DNA of 62,039 bases, taken from positions 1 through 62,039 of the forward strand of contig CAIKLP010000021.1 of the NCBI GenBank assembly GCA_903828245.1. Direction: 5' to 3'. The notes under the pieces were generated by a model. The model ran no database searches and had not been told where the DNA came from. It saw only the letters and a program-made list of their open reading frames with translations. The DNA is from an uncultured bacterium. Lineage in GTDB: Bacteria > Bacteroidota > Bacteroidia > Sphingobacteriales > Sphingobacteriaceae. How positions within the stretch are numbered: position 1 is the stretch's first letter; each line of letters begins with the position of its first letter. Position numbers and translations under genes: made by a program. Shown in pieces: positions 54,260-60,670 of this stretch.

Positions 54260-54267
54260 TAAATTTG
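54260..54267 (+). promoter_or_regulatory. candidate -7 element of the MbnP-like operon
   Basis: TAAATTTG, a perfect TAnnTTTG, 16 nt before the MbnP-like ATG. I find no TTG at the correct spacing, so the promoter is either weak or activator-dependent. Confidence 0.45.
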
Positions 54268-54283: not shown

Positions 54284-55015
54284 ATGAAACTTCAATTACT
54301 ATTCGTTTTATTGTTTTTTAGTTTGATGGGTTGTACTTGGGAAAACCAAGATTCAACAGGTTCTTTAAAAGTTAATTTTGTGCATACTTTTCAAGATTCT
54401 TCTTTACAGATATTGGAAAGCAATCAATTAATTTATACTACCTCAACTGGGAATAAATTCAATATCAAAAATTTAAAATACTATATTGCTAAATTAACAC
54501 TTTACCAAAATAATGGAGCGAAGTATGATGTGAATATGGTTAAATTAATTAACCCTATGGAACAAAATACTAATTATCAAAATTATACGCTATCAAATAT
54601 TCCAAACGGAAAGTACAGTAAAATTTCTTTTGTGTTTGGTGTGGATTCTGCTAGAAATACTTTCCCTTTTGGTTTACCCAATAACTCCGAAAACAATTCG
54701 ATGGAATGGCCATTTACCCTAGGAGGAGGCTATCATTTTATGATGATGGAAGGCGTGTTTCAAAATTCGAAAAACGATACCGTAGGTTATGCTATTCACT
54801 TAGGCGTTACACCTAATCAATTTTACAACGAATTTCCATTAGATTTAACCGTTAATGGAAACGACCAAAGCTTAGATTTTCAAGTAAACATTGAGCAATG
54901 GTTTAACGGCATTAATAAAATCAATTTGAACGATGGTTATGGTTATATGATGGAAGACCAACAAAAACAATTGTTATTTAAACAAAATGGGGTAAGTGTT
55001 TTTACACTTAAATAA
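54284..55015 (+). CDS. MbnP-like lipoprotein
   Basis: A 243-residue lipoprotein (lipobox LMGC, Cys17) of the MbnP-like family. Typical segments are SLKVNFVHTFQDSS near the mature N-terminus, FNIKNLKYYIAKLTLY, KYSKISFVFGVDSARN and the core SMEWPFTLGGGYHFMMMEG with Trp142 and His151. MbnP partners in methanobactin operons are periplasmic copper binders in which a diheme MbnH oxidises a tryptophan to kynurenine. Here the MbnH-like gene follows by 2 bp. No methanobactin genes are visible, so the metal and role are inferred from the family. Confidence 0.87.
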   Translation: MKLQLLFVLLFFSLMGCTWENQDSTGSLKVNFVHTFQDSSLQILESNQLIYTTSTGNKFNIKNLKYYIAKLTLYQNNGAKYDVNMVKLINPMEQNTNYQNYTLSNIPNGKYSKISFVFGVDSARNTFPFGLPNNSENNSMEWPFTLGGGYHFMMMEGVFQNSKNDTVGYAIHLGVTPNQFYNEFPLDLTVNGNDQSLDFQVNIEQWFNGINKINLNDGYGYMMEDQQKQLLFKQNGVSVFTLK

Positions 55016-55017
55016 GG

Positions 55018-56103
55018 ATGAAAAAGTTTGCTGTAATTGGAATATTGTTATTATCGGCTATGCTAATTATGCAGGCATGCGTGGAGCATACTGCTGCTCC
55101 AGACGATACTTACGATTTTCAAACGCCGGCCTATTTTCCTAAAATTGTTTCGCCAACTAATAATCCTTTAACTAAATCTGGTGTGAGTTTGGGTCGCATG
55201 TTATTTTACGATCCAATTTTATCTCAAGATAGTACCATTAGTTGTTCGAGTTGTCACAACATTGCAAATGCTTTTGCCGAAGATAAAAAGTATAGTGTTG
55301 GGGTGGGAGGTGCTACTGGCGATGTAAATGCCATGGCAATTATCAATTTAGCATGGCAGCAAAAATTCTTTTGGAATGGACGCGCTACCAGCTTAGAAGA
55401 GCAAGCATTAGGGCCCATCAACAATCCGCTCGAAATGCACGAAACCAGCGAAAATGTTGCTGCAAAATTAAGCCGTTCTAAAAGATATGCACCGCTATTT
55501 AAACAAGCATTTGGCAGCGCAACGGTAACGCCTGAAATGATTGCCAAAGCCATTTCGCAATTCGAAAGAATTATTGTTTCGAACCAATCTACTTACGATA
55601 AATTTTACGAAATACAAGAGCGGGCATTTACAGCAGAAGAATATGCTGGCTTTAGAATTTTCTTTACCGAAAGAGGCCAATGTTTTCATTGTCATGGGGC
55701 AAATGGTACTTTGCTTGCCCATAATTTAGATACTATTTTTAGAAATAATGGTTTGCTTACTGATCAAGAAATGATTGGAAAAGGTTTATCTTTTGTAACT
55801 AAAAAAGCAACAGACAATGGAAAGTTTAAGGTACCAACCTTACGTAATATTGAATTGACTGGGCCTTACATGCACGATGGTCGTTTTGCAACATTAGCCG
55901 ATGTAATGGATTTTTATAGTTCGGGAATTAAGCAAAATGCCAATTTGGATATTAATTTTACCAAATCGCCCGAAAGGCTTGAGCAGTATGGTGGTTTGGG
56001 TTTAACAAGCACCGAAAAACAACAAGTTATTGCGTTCTTAAAAACATTAACAGATACTGCTTTTACGCATAATCCTGCTTATCAAAATCCTTTCAAAAAA
56101 TAA
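55018..56103 (+). CDS. diheme cytochrome c peroxidase / MauG-MbnH family protein
   Basis: A 361-residue lipoprotein (lipobox MQAC, Cys21) with two CxxCH heme sites: Cys76-Cys79-His80 (SCSSCHNIANAF) and Cys222-Cys225-His226 (QCFHCHGANG). Other family segments are LGRMLFYDPILSQDSTIS, NGRATSLEEQALGPINNP and GPYMHDGRFATL. The group includes peroxide-reducing CcpA enzymes and the MauG/MbnH enzymes that modify a protein substrate. Pairing with an MbnP-like gene 2 bp upstream favours the latter. It ends one base from the convergent FG-GAP gene. Confidence 0.92.
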   Translation: MKKFAVIGILLLSAMLIMQACVEHTAAPDDTYDFQTPAYFPKIVSPTNNPLTKSGVSLGRMLFYDPILSQDSTISCSSCHNIANAFAEDKKYSVGVGGATGDVNAMAIINLAWQQKFFWNGRATSLEEQALGPINNPLEMHETSENVAAKLSRSKRYAPLFKQAFGSATVTPEMIAKAISQFERIIVSNQSTYDKFYEIQERAFTAEEYAGFRIFFTERGQCFHCHGANGTLLAHNLDTIFRNNGLLTDQEMIGKGLSFVTKKATDNGKFKVPTLRNIELTGPYMHDGRFATLADVMDFYSSGIKQNANLDINFTKSPERLEQYGGLGLTSTEKQQVIAFLKTLTDTAFTHNPAYQNPFKK

Positions 56104-56104
56104 T

Positions 56105-58393
56105 TTACTGCTTAATTATTTTTTCAAATTGATTTCCATCGGCTGTTGTAATTTTTAAAATATAAACGCCATTAGGAATTTCACTTACATTCAATTCGGC
56201 AACAATCGCATCTATATTTTCTTGTAAGATAGATTGACCCAGTTGATTCATCAAGCTACAAGCCTTTATTTTATTGTTGGTTATGCTTTGTAAATGCAGC
56301 AGATGGCTAGTAGGATTGGGGTAACATTTGATAGTAGAATGGCTAAGCTGCGTTTGATTAATACCATCAGGAATAATTTGATTTTTAAATAAAACCAAAC
56401 CGCCCTGAGGATTGCCCGCCATTAATTCTGGCTTATTGTCTCCATCTATATCTGCCATGGTAATGCCAAATCCTCCATTGCTTAAAGTGTATTGGCCTTG
56501 CATCAAATTAATAGAATCTATTACGGCAGGTCCAACCGACATCATTAATTTATCGATATGGTTGAAAATATAAACTTTCCCATTGGCATTTGATACCACT
56601 AATCGTTCTTGGTCGCTGTTAAATATTTTTTGAATAAGGGCTGTTGTTCTTCCACTTGGAAAACCCGAAACGGCTCTCATGTTTATTTTAAAAAGGGAGT
56701 CGCTTATTAATTTAAATTTAGGTTCTGCCGTATTAGAAGTATCCTGCCAGTAATTAATATTGTCAAATCTTTCGCCCGAAATCATAGCCAGTCTTGAGTT
56801 TGGACTCATACTCAAGCTGGTATTTAAAAATGGGGCAGATAAATTGCCCACATCTAAACCAGTTAAATAATTTGATTTGAATGTAAATTGAAATGGATTA
56901 CTAGCACCTGCTGTATTATCGAAATAATAAAAGGTGCCATCATTTGCGCCTGTTATCATATCAATATCGCCGTCTAAATCTACATCCCCAAAAGTTGGTA
57001 CCATGTTGGAGATATTTAAATTTGATAAAGACCATTGGTCTCTACTGATTAGCTCAAATGCAGGGCTGGTAAGGCTTCCCACATTTTTATAAGCAGTTAA
57101 TCCAGATTTATAAGTACCATTTGATTGAAAATATCCGGTGGTACTCACTACAAAATCCATGAGTCCATTTTGGTCAAAGTCAACAAATACCGGATGAGAG
57201 CCTTCGCCTACTTCAATCATTTCTTCTTCTAAAAATGCATTGGTGCTGAGGACAAAATCTGGTGCTGTATCTGTTCCCATGTTCAAATACAATTTACAAT
57301 TTTCGAAATTGTCTGCATTGCCTGTTGTATTAGGAGCGGCAATTAAATCTCTTTTATTATCGTTGTTTACATCAATAAAAAATGCAGCCGGAAAACTCTC
57401 CACTAAAATGGGATCTATTGTTGGATAAAACCTGTAGAATGAAGTAAATATAGGGTTGGTATTACTTTCTGTATTCACTAGTAAATACATATTACTACAG
57501 CCAATATCGCCGATTAAAATATCGTTTTTACCATCACCATTCGAATCAAAAACCAATAAAGTAGAGCCCGAGTGTTTGCCACCAGTTAATTTTTTAGTAA
57601 CTAAATTTTCGAATTCAGATTTTGTATATTCAGGAATATATCGATTGCCTGTAGCACAAGGTCCGCTTTGGTATTGTAGCGACACATTACAATTTTGATA
57701 TGATTCTCTAAACCTTCCCCAGCATCTTTTATGTACGATAAAATTATTGACAGAATCTTTGTTACCATAGGTTTCCATCGACATGTTTTTATACATATAT
57801 ATTCCATCGCCTGCGGTATCGATTCCTAGCTCCATGCTGAGTATATCTACATCGCCATCATCATCTACATCTAAAACAGCTGGAATGTCGGCAGGGCCGC
57901 TATATAACCTGGTAACAAAAGAACCAAAGTCGGCTTGTACATCTCCATTGACTAAACTAAAGGAAATACCATTTAAGGTAGTTGAAGTATTTTTATAAAT
58001 TTTTACACCGCCAGGTATAGCTGTAAATATATCTTCTTTGCCATCGCCATTATAATCGACTAATAGCATCCATTCCGTTAGTTTTTTTGGAAATTTAGTA
58101 GCGTATTGTGGTGCATATTCATAAGCAATTTGTCCAGTGATTCCTTTATTAAGGTAGCAACTAATTTTGCCGCCCTCTCGATCAAAAATGACGATATCTT
58201 TTTTGCCATCAAAATCCAAGTCACATGCCGAAAACTGCGGTACATCAAAGCCTCCAGCAAATGGCAAGCTGATACTTTTATTATTTTGATTAACTGGAAT
58301 CGTATTTGGGTAGGGGATAAAACCTCCTGTGAAATTTTGTGCTAAGGCGATGTCAACTAAAAAACAACAGGCAAAGAATAATATTTTTTTCAT
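56105..58393 (-). CDS. secreted FG-GAP repeat protein with T9SS sorting domain (paralog 2)
   Basis: A 762-residue secreted protein: signal peptide (ILFFACCFLVDIALAQ), a long FG-GAP/VCBS beta-propeller region with at least seven calcium-type loops (DLDFDGKKDI, DYNGDGKEDI, DVDDDGDVDIL, DSNGDGKNDI, DVNNDNKRDL, DVDLDGDIDMI, DIDGDNKPEL), and a type A T9SS domain at the end (IKCYPNPTSHLL ... NGVYILKI). A cysteine module KRCWGRF has Cys224, Cys235, Cys246, with exact C-x10-C-x10-C spacing also found in its neighbour. Surface-exposed; adhesion or ligand-binding role inferred. Confidence 0.88.
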   Translation of the reverse strand: MKKILFFACCFLVDIALAQNFTGGFIPYPNTIPVNQNNKSISLPFAGGFDVPQFSACDLDFDGKKDIVIFDREGGKISCYLNKGITGQIAYEYAPQYATKFPKKLTEWMLLVDYNGDGKEDIFTAIPGGVKIYKNTSTTLNGISFSLVNGDVQADFGSFVTRLYSGPADIPAVLDVDDDGDVDILSMELGIDTAGDGIYMYKNMSMETYGNKDSVNNFIVHKRCWGRFRESYQNCNVSLQYQSGPCATGNRYIPEYTKSEFENLVTKKLTGGKHSGSTLLVFDSNGDGKNDILIGDIGCSNMYLLVNTESNTNPIFTSFYRFYPTIDPILVESFPAAFFIDVNNDNKRDLIAAPNTTGNADNFENCKLYLNMGTDTAPDFVLSTNAFLEEEMIEVGEGSHPVFVDFDQNGLMDFVVSTTGYFQSNGTYKSGLTAYKNVGSLTSPAFELISRDQWSLSNLNISNMVPTFGDVDLDGDIDMITGANDGTFYYFDNTAGASNPFQFTFKSNYLTGLDVGNLSAPFLNTSLSMSPNSRLAMISGERFDNINYWQDTSNTAEPKFKLISDSLFKINMRAVSGFPSGRTTALIQKIFNSDQERLVVSNANGKVYIFNHIDKLMMSVGPAVIDSINLMQGQYTLSNGGFGITMADIDGDNKPELMAGNPQGGLVLFKNQIIPDGINQTQLSHSTIKCYPNPTSHLLHLQSITNNKIKACSLMNQLGQSILQENIDAIVAELNVSEIPNGVYILKITTADGNQFEKIIKQ

Positions 58394-60670
58394 TTATTTT
58401 TTGATAAACTTGGAACTGTAACGGTGTTGATTGGTTTGTATATCTACTACATAAAAACCAGGTACTAAGCTACTACTTTCTAGTTTAATTTGATTGTTTT
58501 GTAGGCTAAATGGAATATCTTTTTTAATACCCATTAAGTCGGTTACCCTCAATAAATTTAATTTTTCATTCCATGGAATGTCAATGTAAAATATTGATTC
58601 ACATGGGTTTGGATAGGATATTAAGGTATTATTTATAATTTGATTGATTCCAACTGGCGCCGAACTAGCATTCCAATAAATGGCCACCCCACCCCTTGGG
58701 GTACCAGTAATTAATTCTGCTTTTCCATCATCATCTATATCCGCTAAATCTATTTTAAAACCGCCATTTGCATAAGAATAAACACCTTGCATCAAATCGA
58801 CCAAATTTGTAATTTTTACATTTGATTGATTGGGGTCGGTGTATAAACTATCTAAGGTGTAAACATAACCATTGGCATCACTAAAAATAAATCGATCTCT
58901 GTCATTCGTAAATAGTTTATTTATACAAACAGAGGCCTTGCCACTAGGATATAAAAATAGCTTGCCTAAGTTGATTTTATATAAGGAATCGGTCGCTAAA
59001 ACATAAGCTGGTAGGCTATTTGACTGCCCTTTTAAAAAATTAATATTATAAAAATTTTCTCCAGAAATTAAATCTTGAATGCCATCTTTATCGAGGTCGT
59101 AGGCGGTAGGGCTGGAGTTATTCCCAATGTCTAAATTGCTAAAGGTATTTGGAATATAATTTAAATTGAATGTTTGTCCAGCACCTGCACTATTATTAAA
59201 ATAATAAAAATTACCATCGCTACTACCTGTTATCATATCGATGTCGCCATCTGCATCTGCATCAAAAAATACGGGCGAAAACTTTTGAATACCAATACTC
59301 GAAAACCCAGCATAATCGCGGGTTTGTAACTCATATTTGGGTATTGTTTTAGTACCAATATTTTGATATAAAGTAAGGCCACTTTTATAGCTGCCATTGC
59401 TTTGGTAATAACCCGTGCTACCGATCATGATATCTATTAAACCATCTTGGTTATAATCGACAAAACTTGGGCAAGCTCCTTCACCAATGTCTATTTGTTC
59501 TTCTGCTAAAAAGCGTGCATTATCAAAAACATAATAAGGTACACTTGCATTTCCACGATTCAAATACAACCAAACATTTTGAAAGTTCTCGCTAGCATTT
59601 GGGGTATTCGGGCAAGCAATGATATCTTTTAATCCATCGTTGTTTACATCCATTAAAAATGCAGCAGGAAAGGTGGCAAAATTAATAGGTAAGTTACTCG
59701 GAAAGTTAGTAACAACTTGATTCATGATGGCATTGGTATTATCGCTACCATTAATGGCCAAATACATTTGGTTACAGCCAGCATCACCAATTAAAACATC
59801 ATTTTTACCATCACCGGTAAAGTCATAAACCAAACAAGTAGAACCCGCATGTCTATTGCTTTTGTTCGCTAAATTAACATTAGCTTGGTATTCAGAAAGG
59901 CTCAATTCTGCTTTGTTACCCGTGCTACAGGGCGTGCCGGCATAATTTAACAGAATGGTACATCCATTATTATCTTCAATAAATCTTCCCCAACATCTTT
60001 TCCAAATAACAAAAGTGTCTATACCTGCAATGCCTGTTTTTTCTACCGTTAAATTTTTAAACCACTCAATTGGTTCGCCTGGTGTGATTGTTGCTGTGCC
60101 AAATCTTAAAATGTCTAAGTCGCCATCTCCATCAACATCGGCTATACTTGGTATATCGTTTGATGGTACGCCTATGGCTATGGTAAATTGCGTAGTACTA
60201 AATAAAATTTGATCTATAATTAATTTAAATTTTAAACCTAAGGAATCTGTTGAAATATTTCGGTAGCATGCAATGCCGCCATTTTTATCACAAAATAAAT
60301 CTTCTTTTCCATCTCCATCATAATCCATCATTAACATCCATTCGCCAATTATAGGGAATCGATTATTATAACGAATATCGTATTGGTAATTTATTTCGTT
60401 TGGTCCTCCAATATTTAGGAAACAGGAAAGTTTGGAGCCTTCTCGATCGTGTACAATGATATCTTTTTTACCATCTAAATTGATATCGCAACTGGCAAAT
60501 TGAGCAGCGTCTATTCCACCGGCAAAAGGGGCTTTAAGTGTTTTGCCATTTTCTATTACCGTTATGGCCGCTTTTTGGGTATCATATGGCTTAAAATCTA
60601 AAATATCCTGTGCATAGCCCGAAAGAGCAAGATTTAAAAGTATAAGGTAAAATCCCAATAATTTTTTCAT
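58394..60670 (-). CDS. secreted FG-GAP repeat protein with T9SS sorting domain (paralog 1)
   Basis: A 758-residue close relative of the following gene, with the same order: signal peptide (FYLILLNLALSGYAQ), FG-GAP loops (DINLDGKKDI, DYDGDGKEDL, DVDGDGDLDIL, DFTGDGKNDVL, DVNNDGLKDI, DYNQDGLIDI, DADADGDIDMI, DLDKDGIQDL), the KRCWGRF module with Cys226, Cys237, Cys248, and a T9SS tail (LISYPNPCESIF ... PGFYVVDIQT). Its stop and the next gene's start are adjacent bases, so a tandem duplication transcribed as one unit is likely. Confidence 0.88.
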   Translation of the reverse strand: MKKLLGFYLILLNLALSGYAQDILDFKPYDTQKAAITVIENGKTLKAPFAGGIDAAQFASCDINLDGKKDIIVHDREGSKLSCFLNIGGPNEINYQYDIRYNNRFPIIGEWMLMMDYDGDGKEDLFCDKNGGIACYRNISTDSLGLKFKLIIDQILFSTTQFTIAIGVPSNDIPSIADVDGDGDLDILRFGTATITPGEPIEWFKNLTVEKTGIAGIDTFVIWKRCWGRFIEDNNGCTILLNYAGTPCSTGNKAELSLSEYQANVNLANKSNRHAGSTCLVYDFTGDGKNDVLIGDAGCNQMYLAINGSDNTNAIMNQVVTNFPSNLPINFATFPAAFLMDVNNDGLKDIIACPNTPNASENFQNVWLYLNRGNASVPYYVFDNARFLAEEQIDIGEGACPSFVDYNQDGLIDIMIGSTGYYQSNGSYKSGLTLYQNIGTKTIPKYELQTRDYAGFSSIGIQKFSPVFFDADADGDIDMITGSSDGNFYYFNNSAGAGQTFNLNYIPNTFSNLDIGNNSSPTAYDLDKDGIQDLISGENFYNINFLKGQSNSLPAYVLATDSLYKINLGKLFLYPSGKASVCINKLFTNDRDRFIFSDANGYVYTLDSLYTDPNQSNVKITNLVDLMQGVYSYANGGFKIDLADIDDDGKAELITGTPRGGVAIYWNASSAPVGINQIINNTLISYPNPCESIFYIDIPWNEKLNLLRVTDLMGIKKDIPFSLQNNQIKLESSSLVPGFYVVDIQTNQHRYSSKFIKK

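Follow-up and report, generated by a model that had tools for sequence, protein, structure and literature searches.

We identified a variant MbnP/MbnH pair in a Bacteroidota contig (CAIKLP010000021.1 of assembly GCA_903828245.1, Sphingobacteriaceae), which was analyzed as a stretch of 62,039 nt on the forward strand (hereafter the window; features lie on the plus strand unless noted). The stand-alone pair is already known; what is new is the branch to which it belongs, where the enzyme has diverged in step with its target and the usual Trp is missing from some members. A gene for a 243-aa MbnP-family lipoprotein of the GGGYH subtype (54284..55015) is followed after 2 bases, on the same strand, by a gene for a 361-aa MbnH-like diheme lipoprotein of the bCcP/MauG superfamily (55018..56103). 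The first product matched the MbnP family PF20243 with 109 bits (3.2e-31, cut-off 27), and the second matched the CCP_MauG family PF03150 with 187 bits (3.1e-55, cut-off 25.6). Cys17 of the MbnP-like protein (54332..54334) is a lipobox cysteine (LMGC) that is invariant in 33 aligned relatives, and the signal peptide of its partner ends in a lipobox-like MQAC (Cys21). Reading frames, Pfam families and lipobox-like ends all bore out the original prediction of a lipoprotein pair 2 bp apart, and the motif SMEWPFTLGGGYHF, Trp142 and Trp206 were found where it had placed them. The two genes form a pair of the MbnP/MbnH type, with both families and both predicted folds represented.

The pair is a variant in that it passes the Pfam and fold tests and falls below the NCBI equivalog cut-offs. 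With TIGR04052 (MbnP_like_WxW) the window MbnP scored 26.9 bits against an equivalog cut-off of 140, which was also missed by two WxW paralogs of the same genome, C10 (42.5 bits) and C8 (35.6 bits). The WxW motif itself is incomplete: the window protein reads MEWPF, with the first Trp present and the second missing. The diheme protein matched TIGR04039 (MbnH) over the full profile length with 276.5 bits, below the hypothetical-equivalog cut-off of 362.85. The predicted fold of the MbnP-like protein (mean pLDDT 77.6, with residues 124–144, including Trp142, below 50) was closest to MbnP of Methylosinus (7L6G; Z 14.4, rmsd 3.5, 199 residues), and the next structure had a Z of only 6.3.

We put the probability at about 0.6 that, by analogy with characterized pairs, the MbnH-like enzyme oxidizes Trp142 and thereby completes a copper site to which His172 and Met140 also contribute. 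We infer the following scheme, which covers the modified residue and its conversion to kynurenine as well as copper binding and the physiological role. The MbnP-like protein would be an envelope lipoprotein with the MbnP fold, and its MauG-like diheme partner, also a lipoprotein, would use peroxide or oxygen equivalents to reach a high-valent diheme state. This state may then oxidize a Trp of the partner, most likely Trp142, to kynurenine, as in MbnP, MopE and CorA. Together with His172, Met140 and perhaps the clade-specific His151, the oxidized residue would make up a copper site, and the mature lipoprotein would take part in copper handling on the cell surface or within the periplasm. Kynurenine-dependent copper proteins have been characterized from methanotrophs, and many members of the family lie elsewhere. 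The interest of the window pair rests on the pattern of Trp retention and loss across its clade, not on missing methanobactin genes.

Candidate copper-site residues of the MbnP-like protein

MbnP reportedly binds one Cu(I) via His, Met and solvent, and this binding is said to require that MbnH oxidize the first Trp of the WxW motif to kynurenine. The MbnP/MbnH pair of Methylosinus trichosporium OB3b (7L6G, 6E1C) resembles the window pair in both folds, in the pairing itself, in the MauG-like heme motifs with their Tyr, and in the Met-x-Trp and His residues. It differs in that the window pair lies outside a methanobactin locus (the MbnB family is absent), has MEWPxxLGGGYH in place of WxW, carries lipobox cysteines in both proteins and shares only 12–14% identity with MbnP. 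A PDB search with the window MbnP as a single sequence gave no match, and a profile of the GGGYH clade recovered no MbnP structure and hit only a lipoprotein, by chance. A mixed profile, for which three GGGYH MbnPs were aligned with fourteen of the WxW type, reached 7L6G.

In that alignment, eight columns were invariant across the two types: Tyr111, Gly119, Met140, Trp142, Gly149, Tyr150, His172 and Gly174. The mixed profile aligned GMAWNW of 7L6G, and the His of its MVHVGS, with Met140, Trp142 and His172, and a pure WxW profile agreed; Trp142 is therefore the counterpart of the first WxW Trp, and the second one has none. Met140 (54701..54703) aligns with the Met two residues before this first Trp, Trp142 (54707..54709) is the candidate kynurenine precursor, although its register against flavobacterial members is ambiguous, and His172 (54797..54799) is a candidate copper ligand. 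Among 60 WxW sequences the matching positions held Met in 58, Trp in all 60 and His in 59. The three positions conserved in MbnP copper proteins are thus all present in the window protein, in which the canonical Met-x-Trp and His setting is intact. Because these residues align with the near-invariant Met, first Trp and His of WxW proteins, Trp142 is the best candidate for modification in the window protein.

MopE and CorA are copper proteins with a kynurenine derived from Trp and a co-transcribed diheme protein (PMC3912023). The MopE/SACCP and CorA/CorB systems of methanotrophs are therefore like the window pair in joining a surface copper protein to a diheme partner; however, their copper is held by kynurenine and two His residues, and they gave no match to the window pair in the searches made.

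Retention, shift and loss of tryptophan in the GGGYH clade

A scan of GTDB contigs, limited by its patterns, found 37 relatives of the window MbnP, and a profile search of 395 genomes, Bacteroidota only, gave nine strong matches including the window; the GGGYH relatives from both searches all belonged to Bacteroidota. The clade-defining GGGYH motif (residues 147–151; 54722..54736) contributes His151, which was present in all 46 distinct members and in none of the 60 WxW sequences. His172 was likewise found in 46/46, Pro143 in 45/46, and Trp206 (54899..54901) in 45/46 with one gap, as against 2/60 for Trp206 in WxW MbnPs. In a tree of 106 MbnPs a single change split the GGGYH from the WxW types (support 86/67, recovered in 90% of bootstrap trees), and a tree of the partner MbnHs showed the same split, again by one change (90/82, 90% of bootstrap trees); these support values are moderate, and both types of tree contain several long branches. 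As both trees divide alike, the MbnP type predicts the MbnH clade in all 103 pairs (46 GGGYH and 57 WxW). Such matching clades would be expected of a specific enzyme-substrate pair, but two tightly linked genes passed on vertically as a unit would produce the same pattern. Bacteroidota WxW pairs, including C8 and C82 of the window genome, share with the window pair the order MbnP then MbnH and the conserved Met, Trp, Gly-Tyr and His; they differ in that both partners form separate clades, the window type having Pro143, GGG, His151 and Trp206 in MbnP and Met106, Arg184 and His224 in MbnH.

The loop before GGGYH varied among the 46 members: 12 had MxWP, 26 WxWP (one of them WxWL), five WxVP and three FxVP. 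MxWP was found in the window genus, its sister genera and the distant lineages L111–L114; Trp142 is present in 12/12 of the window subclade, which spans about four independent lineages. The three FxVP members, without any loop Trp, were L104 (Tenacibaculum aiptasiae), L109 and L110; their remaining Trp residues lie near the N-terminus, at position 206 and at one further C-terminal place. All eight WxVP and FxVP loci have MbnHs that retain both heme motifs, Trp113, Trp119, Glu139 and Tyr300. A count of Trp142 loss in 8/46 members was set aside as alignment-dependent, since a rival alignment gave loss of the loop Trp in only 3/46. Trp142 paired with the second Trp of the flavobacterial WxWP in one alignment and with the first in another, and because of this shifting register we relied on only the three FxVP members.

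These three members, with an intact MbnH and no loop Trp, are the most informative result of the analysis and weigh against extending the MbnP model unchanged to every member of the clade. In them, MbnH may either act on another residue or serve another job. The original proposal that Trp142 is the modified residue gains from the aligned site and from its invariance in the subclade, and loses some ground to the three exceptions. Its conservation among orthologs was upheld in the subclade but varied across the clade, where Trp206 is at least as conserved.

One alternative, which we regard as doubtful, is that the GGGYH clade is a separate MbnP/MbnH system whose target has moved to Trp206, or to different Trp residues in different members, with the site centered on His151 and His172. 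Were this so, loss of the canonical kynurenine position would be tolerated. A related and also unlikely reading is that the diheme protein of the window pair modifies another residue, Trp206 or the flavobacterial Trp two residues before the WP position, the site having been rebuilt on His151 and His172 in a manner closer to CorA and MopE than to MbnP. It draws on the invariance of Trp206 and His151 within the clade and their rarity or absence in WxW MbnPs, on the retention of Trp206 and an intact MbnH in members without a loop Trp, on the distant L111–L113 proteins, in which the only Trp residues of the mature protein are at the loop and 206 positions, and on the use of kynurenine and two His residues by CorA. 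However, Trp206 lies in a predicted short C-terminal helix that has no counterpart in WxW MbnPs, its invariance may be structural, and Trp142 is also invariant in the window subclade, where it stands in a canonical Met-x-Trp setting. The clade offers a natural series: the target Trp is retained in some members, displaced by two residues in others and lost in a few that still have the enzyme. This series makes it directly testable which residues are the targets of MbnH-like enzymes and whether the sites depend on kynurenine.

The MbnH-like partner

The diheme protein has the features of MbnH-like members of the bCcP/MauG superfamily, aligned with 6E1C: two heme-binding motifs (Cys76–His80 and Cys222–His226), Trp119 and Tyr300. 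The first heme motif, CSSCH (residues 76–80; 55243..55257), is invariant, and in the second, CFHCH (residues 222–226; 55681..55695), His224 is invariant among partners of the GGGYH clade. Residues conserved specifically in GGGYH-type partners include, among others, Met106, Arg184, Gly220, His224 and Gly268. Trp119 (55372..55374) has a Trp as its aligned counterpart in 6E1C as well as in the peroxidase 1IQC, and is the presumed inter-heme Trp by analogy with the superfamily. Tyr300 (55915..55917) aligns with a Tyr of 6E1C and is a candidate MauG-type axial ligand.

We judged it quite unlikely that the diheme protein simply removes H2O2 as other bacterial cytochrome c peroxidases do, and that the MbnP-like protein is merely a neighboring metal-binding or structural lipoprotein. 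Such a role would fit the sequence similarity, which extends across the superfamily to peroxidases such as 1IQC, and the persistence of the enzyme in the three clade members without a loop Trp. However, MbnH (6E1C) was both the best PDB match by sequence and the best match of the predicted fold (Z 19.9 over 308 residues), ahead of the best peroxidase (Z 16.6) and MauG (Z 14.7), although the model, with a mean pLDDT of 65.1, is weaker than that of the MbnP-like protein. The alignment of Tyr300 with the Tyr of 6E1C, the nearly universal pairing, the parallel split of the partner trees and the position of all three diheme genes of the genome next to an MbnP also argue against a peroxidase. MauG, which matures tryptophan tryptophylquinone, is a comparable diheme enzyme that oxidizes Trp residues of a partner, but the window protein scored far under the TIGR03791 (MauG) cut-off (180.7 versus 443.85 bits) and its fold match to MauG was weaker than that to MbnH. 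That the pair matures a site for a metal other than copper, or a metal-free redox-active residue, is unlikely: we know of no experimental metal assignment for the GGGYH clade, whose flavobacterial members have another residue at the Met position, but His172 is invariant, Met140, Trp142 and His172 are all present in the window protein, and the characterized relatives bind copper.

Genomic setting

The source genome (1.95 Mb, 99.45% complete) contains four MbnP genes, on the window contig (C21) and on C8, C82 and C10. Its CCP_MauG genes number exactly three, and each of them lies immediately 3' of an MbnP gene. The canonical WxW is found in the paralogs on C8 (MYWTW), C82 (MYWAW) and C10 (MYWSW), and the window protein alone has MEWPFTLGGGYHF. 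The C10 MbnP lacks a diheme partner; a small Cys-rich protein and one of outer-membrane-like type are encoded beside it. Modification of its Trp, if it occurs, would presumably require one of the three enzymes from the other loci to act in trans. At this locus (L008:4973-7109) the neighbors are a 306-aa outer-membrane-like CDxC protein and a 124-aa Cys-motif protein, neither of which matched a Pfam or NCBIfam family. Two loci of a sister genus (L068 and L069) also have no adjacent MbnH and possess the outer-membrane-like protein. At the C82 locus (L010:10889-13833), the MbnP/MbnH pair is immediately followed by two proteins of the YHYH family that carry type IX secretion tails.

No match to the MbnB/TglH/ChrH family (PF05114), which includes the core gene MbnB, was found in the whole genome, in keeping with the earlier remark that no methanobactin gene was visible. 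The stand-alone context noted earlier is not unusual: the pair is known far beyond methanobactin producers (Kenney and Rosenzweig, 2013, PMC3621798), so its occurrence here outside a methanobactin locus is unsurprising. PF20243 was present in 97 of 395 sampled Bacteroidota genomes, nearly every fetched Bacteroidota MbnP adjoins an MbnH, and among about 50 distinct WxW loci all but three had a same-strand MbnH just downstream. The window pair is plausibly a stand-alone maturation pair.

In the window clade the pair stands by itself as a bicistron, with an ABC transporter gene on one side and FG-GAP repeat proteins on the other, and the sister genera have the same pair with the ABC transporter neighbor; no copper-specific gene was seen among the neighbors of the window pair. 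WxW loci commonly have, just upstream, a small protein with a C...P.L.C.GKC-like motif. Vicingus-type GGGYH pairs share the setting of WxW loci, including C10, with a small Cys-rich protein and an outer-membrane-like CDxC protein. Among GGGYH loci, L077, L080 and L083 have the small protein, and L077 and L080 the outer-membrane-like protein as well. That the two types can share one setting supports a shared function.

Additional observations concern the neighboring genes. The small unclassified C...C.GKC.L protein just upstream of MbnP genes across Bacteroidota (L080:2327-3816, L077, L083 and many WxW loci) is a candidate metal-handling family. The Flavobacteriaceae GGGYH pair comes after a choice-of-anchor B protein and an SBBP-type lipoprotein, and in most loci of this family (L079, L084–L106) these genes form a conserved four-gene unit. 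Lipoprotein cysteines of the unit precede acidic runs (CNNDDD, CKKDDD) that are reminiscent of surface-export signals. In the window, TAAATTTG at 54260-54267, 16 bases before the MbnP start, matches the Bacteroidota -7 element TAnnTTTG; no clear -33 element was seen nearby. Convergent with the pair, two tandem FG-GAP repeat proteins are encoded at 56105-60670 on the minus strand, each approximately 760 aa long and equipped with a sorting tail for type IX secretion.
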